From a virus, in the IMG/VR virus record IMGVR_UViG_3300008267_000908, positions 1 to 20,678 of that record: 20,678 nucleotides of DNA, one strand, 5' to 3'. The notes below the pieces were generated by a model. That model saw only the letters and a list, made by a program, of their open reading frames with translations, had not been told where the DNA came from and ran no database searches. The position numbers and the translations under genes are program-made. Positions 1,814 through 20,426 of this stretch are shown here, one piece after another (within the stretch, counting starts at the first letter, position 1; every line of letters starts with the position of its first letter).

Positions 1814-2155
1814 ATGAGTAATTTAGAAGAAAATATTTGGGGTAAGAAAAAATTTTCGGATTTATTAAAAGAAATTTACGAAAACTCAAAGAAAAAAGAA
1901 TCCCAAATTAATGCTTTAATAGGTGAATTAAAACCATTAATTAATGATATCGGTGATGCTACTTTAATAGTTCCATTAATTAAAGAATATATGGAATTAG
2001 GTATTAAAAACGATGAACAATTAATTAAAATGGCTACTATTGCTCAACGTGCTATTGCTAGTGGAAAATCTAGTGAAGAAGGGTTTGGTATGACTGAAGA
2101 AGAAAAACAACAATTATTAAACGAAGTTCAAAAGTTTAATTCAAACAACAAATAA
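1814..2155 (+). CDS. conserved-looking 113-aa phage protein, unknown function
   Basis: This acidic, mostly helical protein has no hydrophobic membrane segment. It has an N-terminal helix rich in Lys/Glu (KKFSDLLKEIYENSKKKE), a middle section resembling a packed domain (LINDIGDATLIVPLIKEYME, then KNDEQLIKMATIAQRAI), a Gly/Ser linker and a terminal helix with TEEEKQQLL. It follows the late sigma factor and a candidate late promoter, and its stop shares one base with the start of the baseplate spike gene (TAATG), so it is probably made with the tail genes. A tail-assembly, chaperone or small virion role is plausible but only from position. Its length is close to T4 gp33, the late co-activator, but I see no gp33 sequence features. 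Confidence 0.7.
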   Translation: MSNLEENIWGKKKFSDLLKEIYENSKKKESQINALIGELKPLINDIGDATLIVPLIKEYMELGIKNDEQLIKMATIAQRAIASGKSSEEGFGMTEEEKQQLLNEVQKFNSNNK

Positions 2156-3279
2156 TGGCTCGATATGACTTAGGATGGACTGGGACCATGAAAACTTCAG
2201 TCCCTAATAAACCAGCTTCAGCTGGTAAAGGTAATAATACACCTTCTCCATCAAATGTTTTTTTTGGAGTAGTAAATGAAATTATTTCTGATTCATCAAA
2301 ACCCCAAGGTACTATATCTTATATTTCCAACAAAAATAAAATCCCAGGAGAAGCATCTCCATTATTAAGTGATAATTCTTATTATCCTATAGCAGGAGAA
2401 ATGGTTTTACTATTTACTTTTTCTGATACTGAATATAACAAGTCTGGTGAATCTTCACCTTTTGGAACAATTACAAGAACATTTTACATTGGAGGTATTA
2501 ATGTATGGGATAATCCTTCATTTAATGGAGTAGCTGAAACTGATCAAATTAAAAATCCTTCTAATACTAATTATTTTAATCCTGCTAATGGTGCTCGTTC
2601 AATGCAATCTTTTGTAGGAGATAAAATTTTGCAAGGAAGATTTGGAAATAGTATTAGATTGGGAGGATCATATAATACTCCATGGAAATCATTTAATTCA
2701 AATAATCCTATAACTATAATAAGTAATGGAAATCCAAATTCAACATCTCAATATATTATAGAAGATCCTAATAAAGATCCCTCTTCTATATATTTAACAT
2801 TTGATCAACAAATTCCATTTAGTATAGCTAATGAAAATTTTAATTCATATACTAATAAACCTACTATTCCTTCCCAATTTAATCAACCCCAAATATTACT
2901 TAACTCAGATAGAGTAGTTTTAAATGCTAAAAAAGACAGCATTTTAATCAGTGGAGAAAAATCAGTTGGTTTATCATCAAATAAAAGTATAAATTTAGAA
3001 GCTGAAAAAATTTATATGAGTGGAGTAGATATTAGGTTAGGAAATAAAAGCGCTTCTCAATCTGTATTAAAAGGGGATGATACAGTGCAGTTATTAAAAA
3101 TTGTAATTAATGAACTACTTAATATAACAACTCTCTTAAAAACTTCCCAAATATACCCAGGAGGTGTTCCTGTTCCTGATGCTTTGATGAATACAGCGGC
3201 TACTATTGCTTCTGCTAATTTAAATAAAATTTTAGTAGAAATAGATAGTATTAAATCTAATTTTGTAAAAACTATATAA
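2155..3279 (+). CDS. baseplate hub/central spike protein, gp5-like without lysozyme domain
   Basis: This is probably the puncturing hub protein at the centre of the baseplate. An OB-fold-like N-terminal part is suggested by VFFGVVNEIISD (about 35-46) and YYPIAGEMVLLF (about 76-87). The segment GRFGNSIRLGG (about 161-171) is the signature seen in gp5-type spike proteins of marine T4-like phages. Residues about 249-297 contain short alternating strands (VVLNAKKDSILISG, KSINLEAEKIYMSG, VDIRLGN), as in the triple-stranded beta-helix spike of gp5 and VgrG. The helical C-terminal 75 residues are less typical. At 374 aa it is much shorter than T4 gp5 (575 aa), and no muramidase domain lies between the OB and helix parts; the next gene supplies a separate GH19 enzyme. 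The start overlaps the upstream stop (TAATG). Confidence 0.75.
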   Translation: MARYDLGWTGTMKTSVPNKPASAGKGNNTPSPSNVFFGVVNEIISDSSKPQGTISYISNKNKIPGEASPLLSDNSYYPIAGEMVLLFTFSDTEYNKSGESSPFGTITRTFYIGGINVWDNPSFNGVAETDQIKNPSNTNYFNPANGARSMQSFVGDKILQGRFGNSIRLGGSYNTPWKSFNSNNPITIISNGNPNSTSQYIIEDPNKDPSSIYLTFDQQIPFSIANENFNSYTNKPTIPSQFNQPQILLNSDRVVLNAKKDSILISGEKSVGLSSNKSINLEAEKIYMSGVDIRLGNKSASQSVLKGDDTVQLLKIVINELLNITTLLKTSQIYPGGVPVPDALMNTAATIASANLNKILVEIDSIKSNFVKTI

Positions 3280-3289
3280 TTTTTAAAAT

Positions 3290-4177
3290 ATGCCTGTAAC
3301 ATTTGATGTAAACAAAGCACTAGATTTAGCTAAAGAACTATGGGTAAAAGAAAATCCCCCAAACGTTCCTTTTATGTTTAGTAGTTCTTTACTTTTAGTT
3401 TTAGAAAAAATCCAAGTTGATGAAAGAATAGACGATATAAGAAAAGCAGCTTATCTATTAGGAACAGCCGCAGGAGAAAGTGGATATTCCTTGTCAAGAT
3501 GGGAAGCCGATTATGTATGTACCACTACTAATGCACAAGGAAAAAAAATTAGTATGACAGGAATTGCTTATGGAGAGGAAGGACCATGCCAATCAGCTCT
3601 TAGTTATTATCGTAGTACAGCAGGTGGTAAAAAAAATTATTATACTTTAGGATTAGATAAAAAGGGATTACCTTATTTTGGTCGTGGATTAATTCAATTA
3701 ACCGGAAAAGGTAACTATGAAACTTATGGAGATAAAATTGGTGTAAATCTTGTAGATGATGCTGATTTAGCATTAGAAGAAAATAATAGTTACAATATAG
3801 CTGTTGAATATATGATAAAAAGAAAAACTTTTACATATGTTACTGATCCAAAAGCTAGATTTACTACCAAAAAAGGATCTTGGACTGGTTTAGAAGCAGC
3901 AAGAAGAAGTGTTAATGGTGGAATCAAAGGACTTTCAGAAATAAATAAATCTTATAAGTGGTGGGTAGAAACAATAAAAAAAACAACTATTTCTAACCCC
4001 ATTAAAACCCAAGGAACAATAATTTCTGGGACTACTGTTGAACCTATAAAAGGAGCAACAATAAAAATTGTAGAACCTTTGCCTAGACTTGAACCTCTTA
4101 GACCAACTCTAGTTTCCCCTTCCAACCCAGATCAATTTACAACAACAATATCTCCTTTAGGTTCCCCTGAAGGATAA
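3290..4177 (+). CDS. GH19 chitinase-like peptidoglycan hydrolase (baseplate or endolysin type)
   Basis: This enzyme of the GH19 fold is likely to cut peptidoglycan during infection or lysis. The likely catalytic pair is visible: Glu63 in AAGESGYS (codon 3476) and Glu72 in SRWEADY (codon 3503). The family signature YFGRGLIQLTGKGNY is at residues 129-143, and the substrate-cleft motif SVNGG lies near residue 206. The catalytic domain ends around residue 228. No signal peptide is present, which fits either holin-dependent lysis or a virion-bound enzyme. Placement directly after a lysozyme-less gp5-like spike favours a baseplate-associated role. The last 60 residues are a Pro/Thr-rich tail containing GTIISGTTVEPIKGATIKI, which resembles the first strands of a carboxypeptidase-regulatory-like domain. 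Two Cys (77 and 100) lie near the active site. Confidence 0.85.
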   Translation: MPVTFDVNKALDLAKELWVKENPPNVPFMFSSSLLLVLEKIQVDERIDDIRKAAYLLGTAAGESGYSLSRWEADYVCTTTNAQGKKISMTGIAYGEEGPCQSALSYYRSTAGGKKNYYTLGLDKKGLPYFGRGLIQLTGKGNYETYGDKIGVNLVDDADLALEENNSYNIAVEYMIKRKTFTYVTDPKARFTTKKGSWTGLEAARRSVNGGIKGLSEINKSYKWWVETIKKTTISNPIKTQGTIISGTTVEPIKGATIKIVEPLPRLEPLRPTLVSPSNPDQFTTTISPLGSPEG

Positions 4178-4187
4178 AATAAGAGCA

Positions 4188-6125
4188 ATGATTACGAATC
4201 CATACACATATAATATTATACCTCAAAATAATGAGTTTAAAGTTAAAATATATTATGAAGGAAAACTAATTGATATCCAAACATATGATAATTCTTATAC
4301 TTATGATGAAGTTGGTAGTCAAGTAAAATATAAAATTAAAGATGTTGGATTTAATGATTCTAATGGAAAATTTTATCCTCCATTTGATGAGGCTGCAATA
4401 GTAACTGAAGAAGAATTTAATCAATCAACTTCTATAGAAGAATCTAACCAAACATTAATACCTACTACTTCATTATCTTTAAGCCCGTATTCTTATAATG
4501 TAACCGGAGATAACATATTTGGTTGGGAATTAACTATTTTTTATAATGGAGTTAAAATTGATTTAGAAAAATATAATAGAGCTAAAAATTATTTTCCTAC
4601 TTATACTTTTATAGACTCTAATGGAACTACTTACCCAGATGGGGATAAATCCGTTAAAGCGTGGGCTGAATTTCTTATAAAAGACATAGGGTTTGAACCT
4701 GAATATCCACCTCTTTCTTCAACAACATCTTTAAATCCTCCTTCCTCAACCCCACCCACTTCAACCTCAACCACTCCCCCACCCCCCCCAGTTACCGAAA
4801 GTATTTCTAATAATAAGGGAGAAGTAGTTTTAGATGTTGCACCTTTAAATAATGTAAATTCAAATAATCCTTATTTTTACACTATTGAAAAAGATTATGG
4901 ATATGCTCCAACGACATCAACATCACAAAAAGGATGGAAAGTTTTTATTTTATACAATGGAACCCCTATTAATCTTCCTCCAGATGGTCCTTTACGATTA
5001 GATTTAAGTCGTAATTATGATGAAGTAGTAGAATTTGTAGAGAGAAAAATTAGAAAAACAGGATTTACTGATATTAATAATCAAACTTATCCCCCTTTTG
5101 AGCTCCAAGTTCCAAAAGCAATTATTACTGCTCCGGGTTATGAAACTCAAGAAATACCTTTAATTAAAGGAGATGGTACTCCAAAAGAATTAGGGGTAAT
5201 TCAAATGACCCCTATTGATAAAGCTACAGAAATTGATAAAATTGAAGCTGCCCAATTTGACCCTAAACAACTAGAAGATTTAATATCTTCTTCTACTAAA
5301 ACCCCAGAACATTTTGCTCAAAAGAAACTTATAGATTTAATTATAAATCTTAAAAACACAGCATTACCATTAGCTATAACATTAATATCCTCATTTGGGA
5401 TTACCCAAGCTTCTAAACTTATAGAAAAAGGAAAAAATAAAGCATCAGATTTACAAGACCAACTTTCATGTCCTACTAACCCAGAAATATTAGATTTAAT
5501 TTCACGTAAAAATAAATTAGTAAAACAATTAAATAATTCTTTAAAAACTATAGATAAAGCAACTCAAATATTAGGGATAACAGGAAATGTAATTACTACT
5601 TTGGAAATTGCTTTTAGAGTTTTAAAAAATTTACCAATCCCTTCATCTGTTCCTCCTGGAGTAGGTCTTCCTGTTAATGTGATATTAGGTATTCAAGATA
5701 GCAAAGATACTATAGATAAAACTATAACTAGATTAAAAACAGCAAATGCTAGTATATTAATTATTTTAGTTATAGTTAGACAAATTTTAACTCAATTATT
5801 ACAATATTTATCTTTACTTGATAGCCTTATTCAAGAATGTTCCCCTGATACAGAAATAACCCAAGAAACAGTTTCAGATGATTTACTTGTCTTAACCCAA
5901 GATCAATCAAATGAGTCTTCTCCATTAGTTACTAATGTAAATGGTTTTGAAATGGGAGTTGAAACTGAACCAACAACAAATTCTTTAAAACGTAGAAGAG
6001 CTTTAGCTAGAAATAAACAAGGTGTAATAATGTTAAAGGGAGAGTGGTCCTTCAGCTCAATTGATCAGATATTAATAGATGAACTAGTATTTTATATTCA
6101 ACAAAATAATTTAAAGGCTGATTAA
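4188..6125 (+). CDS. mosaic tail/baseplate-associated protein: triple repeat, PST linker, helical region
   Basis: This 645-aa protein is built in blocks. Three related beta-type repeats lie at about residues 3-68, 97-175 and 226-304; each has YxY near its start, a VxIxYNG-type strand, a kIkxxGF stretch and (F/I)xDxNGxxYP at its end. A Pro/Ser/Thr linker (about 176-205) separates the second and third. Residues about 305-340 (AIITAPGYETQEIPLI, then ELGVIQMTPI) resemble the second half of a carboxypeptidase-regulatory-like domain. Residues about 350-557 are helical, with hydrophobic stretches near 390-405 and 520-548. The C-terminus has a basic RRRALARNKQG patch followed by an acidic helix. Position between the GH19 enzyme and gp25-like gene suggests a baseplate or tail component, perhaps carrying a binding domain. 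A tape-measure role is possible but not shown. No known single family is recognised. Confidence 0.7.
   Translation: MITNPYTYNIIPQNNEFKVKIYYEGKLIDIQTYDNSYTYDEVGSQVKYKIKDVGFNDSNGKFYPPFDEAAIVTEEEFNQSTSIEESNQTLIPTTSLSLSPYSYNVTGDNIFGWELTIFYNGVKIDLEKYNRAKNYFPTYTFIDSNGTTYPDGDKSVKAWAEFLIKDIGFEPEYPPLSSTTSLNPPSSTPPTSTSTTPPPPPVTESISNNKGEVVLDVAPLNNVNSNNPYFYTIEKDYGYAPTTSTSQKGWKVFILYNGTPINLPPDGPLRLDLSRNYDEVVEFVERKIRKTGFTDINNQTYPPFELQVPKAIITAPGYETQEIPLIKGDGTPKELGVIQMTPIDKATEIDKIEAAQFDPKQLEDLISSSTKTPEHFAQKKLIDLIINLKNTALPLAITLISSFGITQASKLIEKGKNKASDLQDQLSCPTNPEILDLISRKNKLVKQLNNSLKTIDKATQILGITGNVITTLEIAFRVLKNLPIPSSVPPGVGLPVNVILGIQDSKDTIDKTITRLKTANASILIILVIVRQILTQLLQYLSLLDSLIQECSPDTEITQETVSDDLLVLTQDQSNESSPLVTNVNGFEMGVETEPTTNSLKRRRALARNKQGVIMLKGEWSFSSIDQILIDELVFYIQQNNLKAD
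4194..5103 (+). repeat. three degenerate protein-level domain repeats (about 65-80 aa each)
   Basis: Unit 1 is about 4194-4391, unit 2 about 4479-4710 and unit 3 about 4864-5103. Shared anchors are (P)YxYN/T at the start, KVKIYYEGKLID / ELTIFYNGVKID / KVFILYNGTPIN in the first third, KIKDVGF / LIKDIGF / KIRKTGF near the end, and DSNGKFYPPF / DSNGTTYPDG / DINNQTYPPF. In unit 2 the DSNG motif precedes the IKDIGF motif, so its order is rearranged. The copies are divergent in DNA and are therefore an old duplication, not a recent tandem repeat. Confidence 0.65.
4714..4792 (+). repeat. low-complexity Pro/Ser/Thr linker with C5-A-C8 tract
   Basis: This stretch encodes a Pro/Ser/Thr-rich hinge between repeat units 2 and 3 and is unusually C-rich for this AT-rich DNA. 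It contains five Cs (4776-4780), an A, and eight Cs (4782-4789). Homopolymer C8 tracts are prone to slippage; a one-base change would shift the frame of the downstream two-thirds of the protein. Confidence 0.8.
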
Positions 6126-6143: not shown

Positions 6144-6491
6144 ATGAAAACCGATATATTAAAAAAATTAATTAAAGAAGCAGTAAGAGAAGTAATTCAA
6201 GAAGAATTAAGAGATATTCTTTTAGAAGCAGTTCGTTCACCAAAAACTGTTGTTAGAGAATCATATGCTCCAACTACAAATCCTATTCAACCATCTCAAC
6301 CAACATTTACTCCACCCATAATGGATTTAAGATCAAAATATAGAGAAGCATTAGGAGAAACAGCTTTAAGTTTTACATCAAATGATGTTCAACAACCTTT
6401 TAGACCTCAAATAGCTGACCCTGTAAATGGAAATTTAGGACTAGGTGAAGTTGGAATGGATCAAATTATGAATTTGTTAAATAACAAATAA
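6144..6491 (+). CDS. small helical tail-region protein, unknown function
   Basis: This 115-aa protein begins with an amphipathic, highly charged helix (residues 3-30, ILKKLIKEAVREVIQEELRD) of the kind used for oligomerisation or partner binding. A Pro/Thr/Gln-rich, probably flexible section follows (about 40-60), then MDLRSKYREALGE and a C-terminal GLGEVGMDQIMNLLNNK. No membrane segment or catalytic motif is visible. Its stop shares one base with the gp25-like start (TAATG), so it is tightly coupled to the wedge genes and may be a small baseplate or assembly factor. I do not recognise the family. Confidence 0.7.
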   Translation: MKTDILKKLIKEAVREVIQEELRDILLEAVRSPKTVVRESYAPTTNPIQPSQPTFTPPIMDLRSKYREALGETALSFTSNDVQQPFRPQIADPVNGNLGLGEVGMDQIMNLLNNK

Positions 6492-6904
6492 TGCCTATAT
6501 CTAATCCTATACAAATTTATCCTAATGATTTAAATCCTAATATTGCTATAGGAGTAAATATACCATTTAATGCACCTGCAGTATTTCAATCTAATTATCA
6601 AACAAAGGATGCTATAAGAAATAATATAATTAATTTTTTTTTAACTGAACCTGGAGAAAGATATATGAATCCTACTTTTGGAGGAGGATTAAGAAGATTT
6701 ATATTTTCTCAAATAGAATCTCAAACTACTGATTTATTAAAAGAAGATGTTGAAAGTAAATTATCAACGTATTTTTCAAATATAGAGGTTAAATCTTTAG
6801 AAGTATTAGAATTTCCTGATGAAAATGTTTATCAAATAATACTAAAATATTCTATAAAAAATACCAATTTAAGTGATGTTTTAATTTTAAATTTTAACCA
6901 ATAA
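6491..6904 (+). CDS. baseplate wedge protein, gp25/GPW family
   Basis: This is the small lysozyme-like structural protein that joins the sheath to the baseplate wedge in contractile tails. The family hallmark is plain: NFFLTEPGERYMNPTFGGGL at residues 48-67, continuing RRFIF to residue 72. The TEPGER and FGGGLRR parts match the conserved EPR-type core of gp25 and of TssE in type VI secretion. At 137 aa it is close to T4 gp25 (132 aa). It sits directly before the gp6/J-like gene, the usual order in contractile phages, separated by one base. No sign of truncation. Confidence 0.93.
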   Translation: MPISNPIQIYPNDLNPNIAIGVNIPFNAPAVFQSNYQTKDAIRNNIINFFLTEPGERYMNPTFGGGLRRFIFSQIESQTTDLLKEDVESKLSTYFSNIEVKSLEVLEFPDENVYQIILKYSIKNTNLSDVLILNFNQ

Positions 6905-6905
6905 G

Positions 6906-8759
6906 ATGTCTAATTTACCAGTAAATAGAAATGTTAATTATATAAATAAAGATTTTTCTCAATTTAGAGAAAAACTTATTACATTTGCCCAAACATATTT
7001 TCCAACCACATACACTGATTTTTCCCCAGCCTCTCCAGGTATGATGTTTATAGAACAAGCAGCATATGTAGGTGATGTTTTAAGTTTTTATTTAGATAAC
7101 CAATTTCAAGAAAATTTTTTACAATATGCTAGACAAAATAATAATATTTATGATTTAGCATATATGTTTGGGTATAAACCAAAACTTACTGCTACCTCTC
7201 AAACAACTTTAGATATATTTCAAGAGGTTCCTGCTATATTAGTTAATGGAGAATATATTCCTGATTATAACTATGCTCTTACAATTCAAGAAAATTCTGA
7301 ATTTACTTCATTAAATGGGGTAAATTTTATTACTCAAGATTTCGTAGATTTTTCTATTTCAAGTTCTCAAGACCCTACAGAAGTAACTATATCTCAAATT
7401 TTAGGAAACACTCCCCAATATTTTCTCTTACAAAAACAAGTAAAACTTATTTCAGCTACTATTCAAACTACTACTTTTAGTTTTACAAATCCAATTCCTT
7501 TTAATACTGTAAATTTAAATTCTTCTAATTTTATAAAAATACTAGACATTATAGATTCTGATGGAAACGTATGGTATGAAGTAGATCATTTAGGGCAAGA
7601 AACTATTTTAGACAGCATTAAAAACACTAATATAAATGACCCTAACTCAGGGACAGATGCTCCTTATTTACTTAAATTAAAAAAAGTTCAAAGACGTTTT
7701 TGTACTAGATTTACTTCTCAAGACAATATAATAATACAATTTGGAGCAGGATCACCTTACGATATCGATGAAGAAATTACTCCTAACCCAAATAATGTAG
7801 GATTAGGATTACCTTTTAAAAAAGACAAATTAACTACCGCATATTCACCTGTTAATTTTTTATACACAGGAACTTATGGAATAGCACCTTCTAATACTAC
7901 TTTAACAGTTAGGTATTTAACTGGAGGTGGGGTAGAATCAAATGTTTCTGCTAATAATATCACAGCTATAGTTGATGATAGTAGGGTTAGATTTTTAACT
8001 AATAATCTTACCCCATCAACCTCAGATTATGTCTTTAATTCTCTTAGTTTTACTAACCCTGACCCAGCAAATGGAGGAAAAGGAGGAGATACCTTAGAAG
8101 AAATAAGACAAAATACTTTAGTTAGTATGGCTGCTCAAAAACGTTCAGTTACAGCTGATGATTATTTTGTTAGAGCCTTAAGTATGCCTTCATATTATGG
8201 TTCTGTTACTAAAGCATATATTGAACAACCAAAATTAACAGATAATCAAGTTTCAACTATTGAAACCTTAAATTTATATGTTTTATCTCAAAATTCTGAA
8301 GGTCAATTAGATTATGCTGGAAGTGCTTTAAAAAATAATTTAAGAACTTATTTATCCCAATATAGAATGATTGGTGATAATATTGAAATTAGAGATGCTT
8401 TTATAATTAATATAGGTGTTTCTTTTGAAATAATAGTATTACCTGAATTTAATAATAATGAAGTATTATTAGAATGTATTAATAAATTAAAGGTTTACTT
8501 TGATATCAATAAATGGCAAATTAATCAACCAATTTTAATAAGAGATATTTACATTTTATTAGATAAAATAAAAGGAGTCCAAACTGTAAAAAATGTTAAT
8601 ATCATTAATAAAGCAGGAACAGCACAAGGATATTCTCCTTACGCATATGATATCCCAGCAGCTACTAGAAACTTAGTTATTTATCCATCGTTAGATCCTA
8701 GTATTTTTGAAGTAAGATACCCTAATACTGATATAAAAGGTAGAGTAGTTCCTTTATAA
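6906..8759 (+). CDS. baseplate wedge protein, gp6/baseplate-J-like
   Basis: This 617-aa protein corresponds to T4 gp6 (660 aa), the ring-forming wedge component. Residues about 38-92 carry the conserved N-terminal block, including DFSPASPGMMFIEQAAYVGD and then LSFYLDNQFQENFL. A central beta-rich part follows. Then comes the J-like segment GGDTLEEIRQNT, with AQKRSVTADDYFVRA (about 415-425), and a C-terminal wedge domain with KWQINQPILIRDIY, KGVQTVKNVNI and a terminal SIFEVRYPNTDIKG. That C-terminal motif is typical of T4-like gp6 proteins. It lies just after the gp25-like gene and shows no frameshift. Confidence is high for a gp6-type wedge protein. Confidence 0.93.
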   Translation: MSNLPVNRNVNYINKDFSQFREKLITFAQTYFPTTYTDFSPASPGMMFIEQAAYVGDVLSFYLDNQFQENFLQYARQNNNIYDLAYMFGYKPKLTATSQTTLDIFQEVPAILVNGEYIPDYNYALTIQENSEFTSLNGVNFITQDFVDFSISSSQDPTEVTISQILGNTPQYFLLQKQVKLISATIQTTTFSFTNPIPFNTVNLNSSNFIKILDIIDSDGNVWYEVDHLGQETILDSIKNTNINDPNSGTDAPYLLKLKKVQRRFCTRFTSQDNIIIQFGAGSPYDIDEEITPNPNNVGLGLPFKKDKLTTAYSPVNFLYTGTYGIAPSNTTLTVRYLTGGGVESNVSANNITAIVDDSRVRFLTNNLTPSTSDYVFNSLSFTNPDPANGGKGGDTLEEIRQNTLVSMAAQKRSVTADDYFVRALSMPSYYGSVTKAYIEQPKLTDNQVSTIETLNLYVLSQNSEGQLDYAGSALKNNLRTYLSQYRMIGDNIEIRDAFIINIGVSFEIIVLPEFNNNEVLLECINKLKVYFDINKWQINQPILIRDIYILLDKIKGVQTVKNVNIINKAGTAQGYSPYAYDIPAATRNLVIYPSLDPSIFEVRYPNTDIKGRVVPL

Positions 8760-19382: not shown

Positions 19383-20426
19383 ATGGCAAATACATTAAAT
19401 CAAGTAGGAATTGAAACTGGAAACGTAGTTGAAGCATATCATATTACCCAATCTATAGATGCTTTTACCGGAACTGTAGACTATGACATATACCTTTCAG
19501 GATCATTTAATATGACAGGTTCTATAAATGGTGAACCTGGGGTTATAAACCCATTAACTGCTTCTTATGCTATAACAACTTCATATGCTGAAACTGCTTC
19601 TTATGCTGTTTCTTCTTCATATGAAATAAATTATGAAACATCTTCAAGCTATGCTGAAACTGCTTCTATTGCTGAATCATCATCTTATGCTTTAAGTGCT
19701 TCATACGTTGAAAGTGCATCTTATGCTTTAAGTGCTTCATACGCTGAAAGTGCTTCATACGCTGAAAGTGCTTCATACGCTGAAAGTGCTTCATACGCTT
19801 TAAGTAGTTCATACGCTGAGAGTGCTTCATACGCTGAAAGTGCATCTTATGCTGCAACTGCTTCATATGTAGAAAATGCTCAAACTGCTTCATATGTAGA
19901 AAATGCTCAAACTGCTTCATATGTTAATTTAGTAGCAGGTCCTAATATAACAATTAATCAAGTAGGAACATCTTTTCAAATAAGTGGATCATCTTTATCC
20001 CCAAGTGGTTTTAATATTGTTGATTTAACAACCCAATTATATACAATTCCTGGTCCTGGTAATTACATGATTATTCAAAATCATACTACTACTCCAAATT
20101 GTTCTATAACTATGCCTTCTACTGCTAATTTAGGAGATGTAATTGAAATTTTTGAAAGAGGATCTTCTAGAACTATTCTTGATATTAGTGGTACTATAGG
20201 AGCAGGCCAACGAATTAACTTTGCAAGCTATACAACTACTACAGGTGCAGCAGGAAATGTTGAAACTAGAAGCACATTAGGTGATAATAATACTTATATG
20301 AAATTAATATGTATAAACCCTGGAGTAGGACCAAATGCAGGTCAACGTTGGCAAATAGTAGAAGTTACTAGTGATAATTTTATAGATGATATATCTCCTT
20401 TATATCAAATTATAACACTTAATTAA
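19383..20426 (+). CDS. repeat-shaft tail fibre protein
   Basis: This 347-aa protein has three parts. The N-terminal 58 residues (VGIETGNVVEAYHITQSIDA, then SGSFNMTGSINGEPG) are a likely attachment domain. Residues about 60-181 form a shaft of hexads of type (A/S)SYAxS, such as ASYAES and ASYALS, followed by two identical nine-residue units ASYVENAQT. The C-terminal 165 residues (ITINQVGTSFQISGSS, PGPGNYMIIQNHTTTPN, RWQIVEVT) look like a beta-sandwich tip, possibly the receptor-binding or trimerising end. Similar SYA-repeat shafts occur in marine phage fibres. The repeat is encoded by 18-base units, so gain or loss keeps the frame. Its location at the end of the structural genes fits a host-recognition fibre. 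The receptor is unknown. Confidence 0.75.
   Translation: MANTLNQVGIETGNVVEAYHITQSIDAFTGTVDYDIYLSGSFNMTGSINGEPGVINPLTASYAITTSYAETASYAVSSSYEINYETSSSYAETASIAESSSYALSASYVESASYALSASYAESASYAESASYAESASYALSSSYAESASYAESASYAATASYVENAQTASYVENAQTASYVNLVAGPNITINQVGTSFQISGSSLSPSGFNIVDLTTQLYTIPGPGNYMIIQNHTTTPNCSITMPSTANLGDVIEIFERGSSRTILDISGTIGAGQRINFASYTTTTGAAGNVETRSTLGDNNTYMKLICINPGVGPNAGQRWQIVEVTSDNFIDDISPLYQIITLN
19560..19925 (+). repeat. in-frame 18-bp and 27-bp tandem repeats (fibre shaft)
   Basis: About sixteen 18-base units encode (A/S)SYAx(S/T), ending in two identical 27-base units encoding ASYVENAQT (19860-19886 and 19887-19913) and a partial third. Three consecutive units at 19734-19787 are identical in DNA (GCTTCATACGCTGAAAGT), while others use TAT and varying codons, suggesting recent local expansion or homogenisation. 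One unit (near 19611-19640) is interrupted. Confidence 0.9.

Follow-up and report, generated by a model that had tools for sequence, protein, structure and literature searches.

A carboxypeptidase-regulatory-like domain divided between a GH19 hydrolase and its neighbour suggests a docking tag in uncultured contractile-tailed phages

Can one protein domain be divided between two neighbouring genes, and what would such a division serve? The question is raised by virus record IMGVR_UViG_3300008267_000908, analysed here over its whole length of 20,678 bases (the window), which contains part of a contractile-tail gene cluster. Two adjacent genes are concerned, both on the plus strand, as are all features described below unless stated. 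Open reading frame (ORF) A (3290–4177) is predicted from Pfam and PHROG matches to encode a cell-wall hydrolase of glycoside hydrolase family 19 (GH19) with a C-terminal half-domain tag, and ORF B (4188–6125), recognised from its relatives in about 400 viral contigs, would encode the receptor half of the same domain and a helical region. An initial annotation had proposed that the tail of the hydrolase holds the first strands of a carboxypeptidase-regulatory-like (CpReg) domain and the next gene its last strands. Comparison with relatives confirmed, at the level of sequence, that the GH19 tail (strands A–B) and protein B (strands C–F) are two parts of one CpReg-like domain. We consider it quite probable that the two chains share one CpReg (transthyretin-like) sandwich, in which a portable A–B tag docks the GH19 enzyme on B, a putative baseplate protein.

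The evidence for the divided domain comes from relatives in which it is whole. Scans of viral contigs, about 400 of which carry B, with the best 80 matches taken per scan, yielded 136 distinct B proteins, some of them near-copies of one another. A complete N-terminal CpReg domain within one ORF was found in 76 of these 136 relatives, and about five more gave a weaker match. One of them, L019 (SIKGTVIDEQSKSPINGAKISIS...VSSDENGDFIINGDIPENEFISLIISSPGYQFEEPAIYKGDNTIKNNIGIIQLQPL), passes the Pfam cut-offs of both PF13715 (37.3 bits, cut-off 32.2) and PF13620 (32.7 bits, cut-off 32.3), and another, L008, passes that of PF13715 with 37.0 bits. From such unsplit relatives only (whole domain in a single ORF) we built hidden Markov models (HMMs) of strands A–B (25 columns) and of strands C–F (59 columns). 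When the 289 six-frame ORFs of the window were searched, the GH19 tail ranked first with the A–B HMM (13.4 bits, E 6e-4) and B ranked first with the C–F HMM (17.0 bits, E 8e-5). The real tail scored 15.8 bits in a comparison with 20,000 shuffled tails, of which only 4 reached 12 bits. The division of one domain between two genes, as the initial annotation had proposed, was thus observed directly in the window. Searched against Pfam up to E 10, neither half of the window alone gave a match, to the CarboxypepD_reg profile or any other; because neither half alone matches a domain model, ordinary annotation misses a domain split in this way.

The segment GTIISGTTVEPIKGATIKI at the GH19 tail, which had been read as the first CpReg strands, corresponds to residues 242–260 of the GH19 ORF (nucleotides 4013–4069) and lies within the top-ranking A–B match, the KTQGTIISGTTVEPIKGATIKI region (A residues 238–260, 4001–4069). 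The last strands had been placed at AIITAPGYETQEIPLI (B residues 311–326, nucleotides 5118–5165) and ELGVIQMTPI (B residues 334–343, nucleotides 5187–5216), and here too the assignment held, since the best window match of the C–F HMM covers strands D–F (KAIITAPGYETQEIPLIKGDGTPKELGVIQMTPI, B residues 310–343, 5115–5216). Strand C had been overlooked. Alignment to split and unsplit relatives placed it at SISNNKGEVVLDV (B residues 205–217, 4800–4838), a segment matched in the alignment by the beginning of B where relatives are split and by strand C where they are not. Behind the tag, ORF A continues into a variable, proline-rich C-terminal tail of 35 residues (4070–4174), which is the equivalent of the B–C loop. 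Identity among the window and its relatives L001 and L002 was 74% in the A–B tag versus 39% in the tail that follows it.

The occurrence of the tag across loci was in agreement with these assignments. At a threshold of 6 bits, the A–B HMM recognised an ORF upstream of B in 24 of 37 split loci and in none of 72 unsplit loci (Fisher p 4e-15); it also recognised 1 of 970 other ORFs, a tagged protein of L038. With an HMM retrained on split and unsplit halves together, the missing half was found on another ORF in 40 of the 40 loci counted as split (39 upstream, 1 downstream). This model was trained partly on those same halves, and the figure of 24 of 37 is the independent one. No other ORF of the unsplit loci carried a second tag. 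The co-occurrence of tag and receptor was thus observed directly. The strands of window A scored 27.2 bits with the retrained HMM, and the core pattern did not differ between the two kinds of half: split and unsplit sequences alike were 100% hydrophobic at columns 9, 10 and 18, nearly all had V or I at column 24, and proline 17, glycine 20 and aspartate or asparagine 11 were dominant.

In unsplit loci with usable upstream sequence, fused forms included, a spike-family HMM found a spike-like gene directly upstream of B in 75 of 75; in 34 of the 40 split loci another gene lay between the spike-like gene and B. Among relatives with usable upstream sequence, the commonest arrangement is a complete domain without an enzyme gene; in 40 relatives, the window included, the domain is cut at the B–C loop. 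Where the split locus has a payload, the intervening gene carries strands A–B, usually near its C-terminus (the window, L001, L002, L006, L009–L018 in part, L021, L024, L025, L038 and others). In L040 and L041 the half follows GH19 and precedes another domain at the C-terminus (LysM in L041), and in L058 and L149 it is N-terminal in the payload. A tagged DUF5675-like enzyme is encoded downstream of B in L236, and L038 has the tag on two proteins, a GH19 encoded upstream of B and, on the downstream side, a protein unrelated to it. In L209 (1447–2446) and L212 the tag is on a gene two positions upstream, and the second gene, adjacent to B, has no recognisable tag. In L114 the half stands bare (MDTQTKGTIVDQGTNQPIKGANIKIVNPTTTK), as a 32-residue ORF (2146–2244) that overlaps the start of B by ATGA. 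Three relatives are fused single ORFs in which payload, strands A–B, strands C–F and helical region follow one another; the payload is DUF5675-like in L091 and L116 and another N-terminal domain in L210. The comparison of the fused L116 with the split L017 gave DNA identities of 98.4% in the 559 bases that follow the junction and 91.8% in the 490 bases that precede it, the main difference being the sequence of the B–C loop. The fused and split forms are therefore interchangeable states at one loop, an equivalence directly observed in this pair.

The proteins that carry the tag are not related to one another as a whole. When the tag was removed and the carriers were compared with phmmer, they fell into seven unrelated groups: a DUF5675-like group of 19 members, a GH19 group of 9, three groups of unknown function (5, 5 and 3 members) and two singletons. 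The conservation of the tag on unrelated payloads was thus observed directly, and the enzyme at the B locus is exchangeable. The DUF5675-like payloads have an HxG...GCI motif, and their weak second Pfam match is to the Tlde1 domain. The DUF5675-like protein upstream in L110 has an unrelated tail. ORF A of the window is a predicted GH19 cell-wall hydrolase, with a match to PF00182 (E 3.5e-7, 30.7 bits against a curated cut-off of 25.5) and to the endolysin family phrog_181 over residues 46–228 (E 4e-16). A separate GH19 scan found relatives adjoining B, which were tagged, and four located elsewhere (L239, L244, L246 and L247), which were without the tag and differ in architecture from the tagged GH19 proteins. 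In L239 (IMGVR_UViG_3300008116_000067, ORF 1847–4609) a GH19 domain close to that of the window is C-terminal in a protein of 921 residues, a different mode of attachment for the same enzyme. The untagged relatives of L246 and L247 have about 250 residues and a hydrophobic, possibly membrane-spanning C-terminal segment.

What fold the joined halves would adopt was addressed by structure prediction. The pair of L024, an in-frame split relative, was modelled with AlphaFold as one chain of 143 residues, the stop being read as glycine and the alignment consisting of split and natural-fusion rows only. In this model the tag forms strands 14–22 and 33–37 with a predicted local distance difference test score (pLDDT) of 76–89; a disordered linker (40–68, pLDDT below 50) contains the gene junction and is followed by strands 72–118 and then a helix. 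The best matches in the PDB were the SusC N-terminal extension 9hfj (template modelling score by target 0.71) and the transthyretin-like domain of carboxypeptidase D, 5aq0 (0.58–0.62), with a probability of 1.00 and E about 2e-3; CnaB2 was further down the list. The joined halves are therefore predicted to form a CpReg/transthyretin-like sandwich, in support of the initial annotation, with the limit that one chain cannot prove assembly of two. In a low-confidence AlphaFold model of B alone, the C–F region had a pLDDT of 54–67, versus 81–90 with the tag in the L024 model, and the helices at 373–461 had 70–84. The two models were made from different alignments, and the higher confidence of strands C–F in the presence of the tag is only suggestive. 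PDB matches of the model of B alone were discarded as meaningless.

On the docking model, strands C–F on B would form a partial receptor whose fold is completed only by the tag. The two chains, encoded by adjacent genes and probably co-translated, would meet during tail assembly, where the tag would insert into B. The enzyme would be held on the baseplate beside the spike without a peptide bond and would act as the tail meets the envelope. Assembly in trans, the baseplate location of B and the cell-wall-digesting role at entry are what we infer, and the same junction would in relatives hold other payloads, a bare tag or one continuous protein. The payload and B appear to tolerate permanent attachment, because they are covalently linked in the fused relatives. 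Since L114 carries a bare tag, B may need strands A–B for folding even without a payload, and the two tagged proteins of L038 suggest that several copies of B can carry different payloads. On balance we also favour the wider reading that these uncultured contractile-tailed phages possess a natural tag/receptor system, in which unrelated enzymes and other proteins are clipped to a single baseplate protein by a portable, position-independent A–B tag, and in which evolution has switched repeatedly among split, fused, bare-tag and multi-payload forms.

How the domain came to be divided had been explained in the initial annotation by a single ancestral protein (lysozyme, CpReg domain, helical region) broken when a repeat cassette inserted into a domain loop. 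Fused enzyme–CpReg–helical ORFs do exist, as L091 and L116 show, and to that extent the search for an uninterrupted form succeeded. No such ORF with GH19 was found, among the relatives or in the separate GH19 scan, and the commonest relatives have a whole domain and no enzyme. The window contains three divergent copies of a module of about 70 residues (YxYxI..GWxVxIxYNGxxIDLxxY..), all 3' of the gene junction: repeat 1 (YTYNIIPQNNEFKVKIYYEGKLIDI..., 4203–4397) and repeat 2 (YSYNVTGDNIFGWELTIFYNGVKIDL..., 4488–4715) lie ahead of strand C and repeat 3 (4872–5096) lies in the C–D loop, so that strand C sits between repeats 2 and 3 (all repeat ends are approximate). Repeat-free split relatives are the rule. 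A single copy of the module occurs in L002, L050, L053, L055 and L067, and probably in L223; in L050, L053, L055 and L067 it stands N-terminal to an intact domain. A tree built from only the helical region of B (113 rows) places the window with L001 and L002, both of which are split, and L001 shares the split of the window without having repeats. On this tree the split must have been gained or lost at least 12 times, and 5 or more of these changes are required by well-supported branches; the figure comes from a quickly made tree in which some branches are long, and it may be inflated by recombination. The split is therefore not attributable to one breakage event, the repeats are a separate insertion and not its cause, and the cassette explanation is hardly credible. 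Nearly as difficult to uphold is the explanation that the halves are joined in vivo into one chain by programmed frameshifting or stop-codon readthrough. In the window the stop of A ends at 4177 and the ATG of B is at 4188, in the +1 frame, which leaves the gap of 10 bases (4178–4187) and the different frames described earlier; the frame of B is already open from 4161, ahead of the stop of A, and in L024, L040, L075 and L149 B is in frame with A. Across the split loci, however, the frame relations 0, +1 and +2, the stops TAA, TGA and TAG, and gaps from -8 to +43 bases are all found. Joining is excluded in L010, L011, L013, L041, L087, L199 and L223 by extra stops or non-overlapping frames, and the gene order is reversed in L236. 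A common frameshift or readthrough mechanism was rejected in view of these variable frames, stops and gaps and of the extra intergenic stops of several loci, and translation is probably separate and coupled.

Two further explanations accept two chains and deny the docking, and we regard each of them as unlikely. The halves might be vestiges of a decaying fission, with the enzyme acting as an independent endolysin. Such decay would agree with the strongly variable tails and with the weak halves in L087, L041, L110 and the second paralogue of L209, but it does not account for a half that none of the 40 loci counted as split has lost, that is found on unrelated carriers and that even occurs alone as a 32-residue gene, nor for its absence from GH19 relatives that do not adjoin B. 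Alternatively, the tag might bind elsewhere, to another CpReg domain or to another copy of the tag, while B swaps strands between its own copies. In favour of this, B is probably oligomeric, and L110 has the receptor half and no visible tag; against it, tag and receptor halves occur only together at the loci and add up to precisely one domain, the one that unsplit and fused relatives contain. The docking of tagged enzymes on B, which we prefer, has observations of its own to answer. In L110, one further split locus, no A–B half was recognised within the locus, and the half is degenerate in some split loci (L087 and L041). The ratio of nonsynonymous to synonymous polymorphism in the tag (0.40–0.86) is not clearly low, as decay would also have it, although the samples are small, near-saturated and too noisy for a statement on selection. 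The L024 model is a single chain with a mean pLDDT of 68.8 and a best Foldseek E-value of 1.8e-3, and we infer, rather than observe, that A and B belong to the virion. All of these points count against docking.

The remainder of the locus agrees with a tail cluster, its gene order being spike-like gene, GH19 gene A, gene B, a small gene, a gp25-like gene and a gp6-like wedge gene. The hydrolase is thus encoded among baseplate genes, between the spike-like gene (2155–3279) and the wedge genes at 6491–8759 (gp25-like, phrog_261, and gp6-like). The spike-like gene gave no confident Pfam or PHROG match, and its homologue is directly 5' of B in every unsplit relative tested. The helical region of B with its C-terminus (NGFEMGVETE...LKRRRA...QILIDELVFYIQQNNLKA, 5220–6122) is conserved in all relatives. 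The last 60 residues (window 5733–6122) are nearly invariant and are preceded by strongly hydrophobic helices (B 516–541). A profile search of B against the PDB and a tblastn search of B against phage genomes gave no match. With the L050 protein as the query, the sole match in phage genomes was a distant gene of Flavobacterium phage immuto. Its product, gp115 (NC_055915.1, YP_010114568.1), is the only cultured relative of B that was found, and it is without the CpReg domain. It is annotated as 'DNA repair ATPase RecN', yet the gene is located just upstream of baseplate genes, and because of this location the annotation is probably wrong. Elsewhere in the window, the protein encoded at 19383–20426 has long SSYAESASYALSSSY-type repeats, and the antisense ORF at 19666–19920 is only a reflection of these repeats.

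If the docking reading is true, phages would change a tail enzyme without altering a structural protein, which would explain the free exchange of tail enzymes. The system offers some 30 natural variants of the tag, among them a 32-residue peptide that is the tag alone, with the fused relatives as built-in positive controls, and new orthogonal protein-joining tools may result. The open-access papers searched, which leave out most subscription journals, contained no description of a natural half-domain tag common to unrelated tail payloads.

The fold is an ordinary CpReg/transthyretin-like one and the enzyme an ordinary GH19. In chaperone-usher pili, donor-strand complementation lets a strand of one chain complete the unfinished Ig-like fold of another; here, as far as sequence alone can tell, two strands of a different fold family would be used, and they would dock unrelated enzymes instead of polymerising identical subunits. 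Known CpReg/transthyretin-like domains (PF13715, PF13620, the SusC N-terminal extension and the transthyretin-like domain of carboxypeptidase D) resemble the unsplit relatives in sequence and the joined halves in predicted fold, but the window differs in having the domain shared between two genes, with the break at the B–C loop, and in the portability of its first half. In phage T4, gp5 carries the tail lysozyme covalently within the spike protein (PMC3004832). The two systems share a cell-wall hydrolase encoded beside the spike and gp25/gp6-like baseplate genes, whereas the enzyme of the window belongs to another family, is encoded as a chain of its own and is exchangeable. In type VI secretion, a C-terminal extension of VgrG1 with a transthyretin-like domain binds the effector Tle1 (PMC6730261), and the likeness is that a contractile-tail device is loaded with its effector through such a domain. 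VgrG1 has the domain within the spike protein and binds a folded effector; in the window the domain belongs to ORF B instead of the spike-like protein, and the payload itself carries part of it. A further parallel is SpyTag/SpyCatcher and other engineered split CnaB domains, in which a short strand peptide completes an incomplete beta-sandwich in trans (PMC6539128). Those are laboratory-made and form an isopeptide bond, whereas the window system, which would be their natural counterpart, uses the first two strands of its domain.

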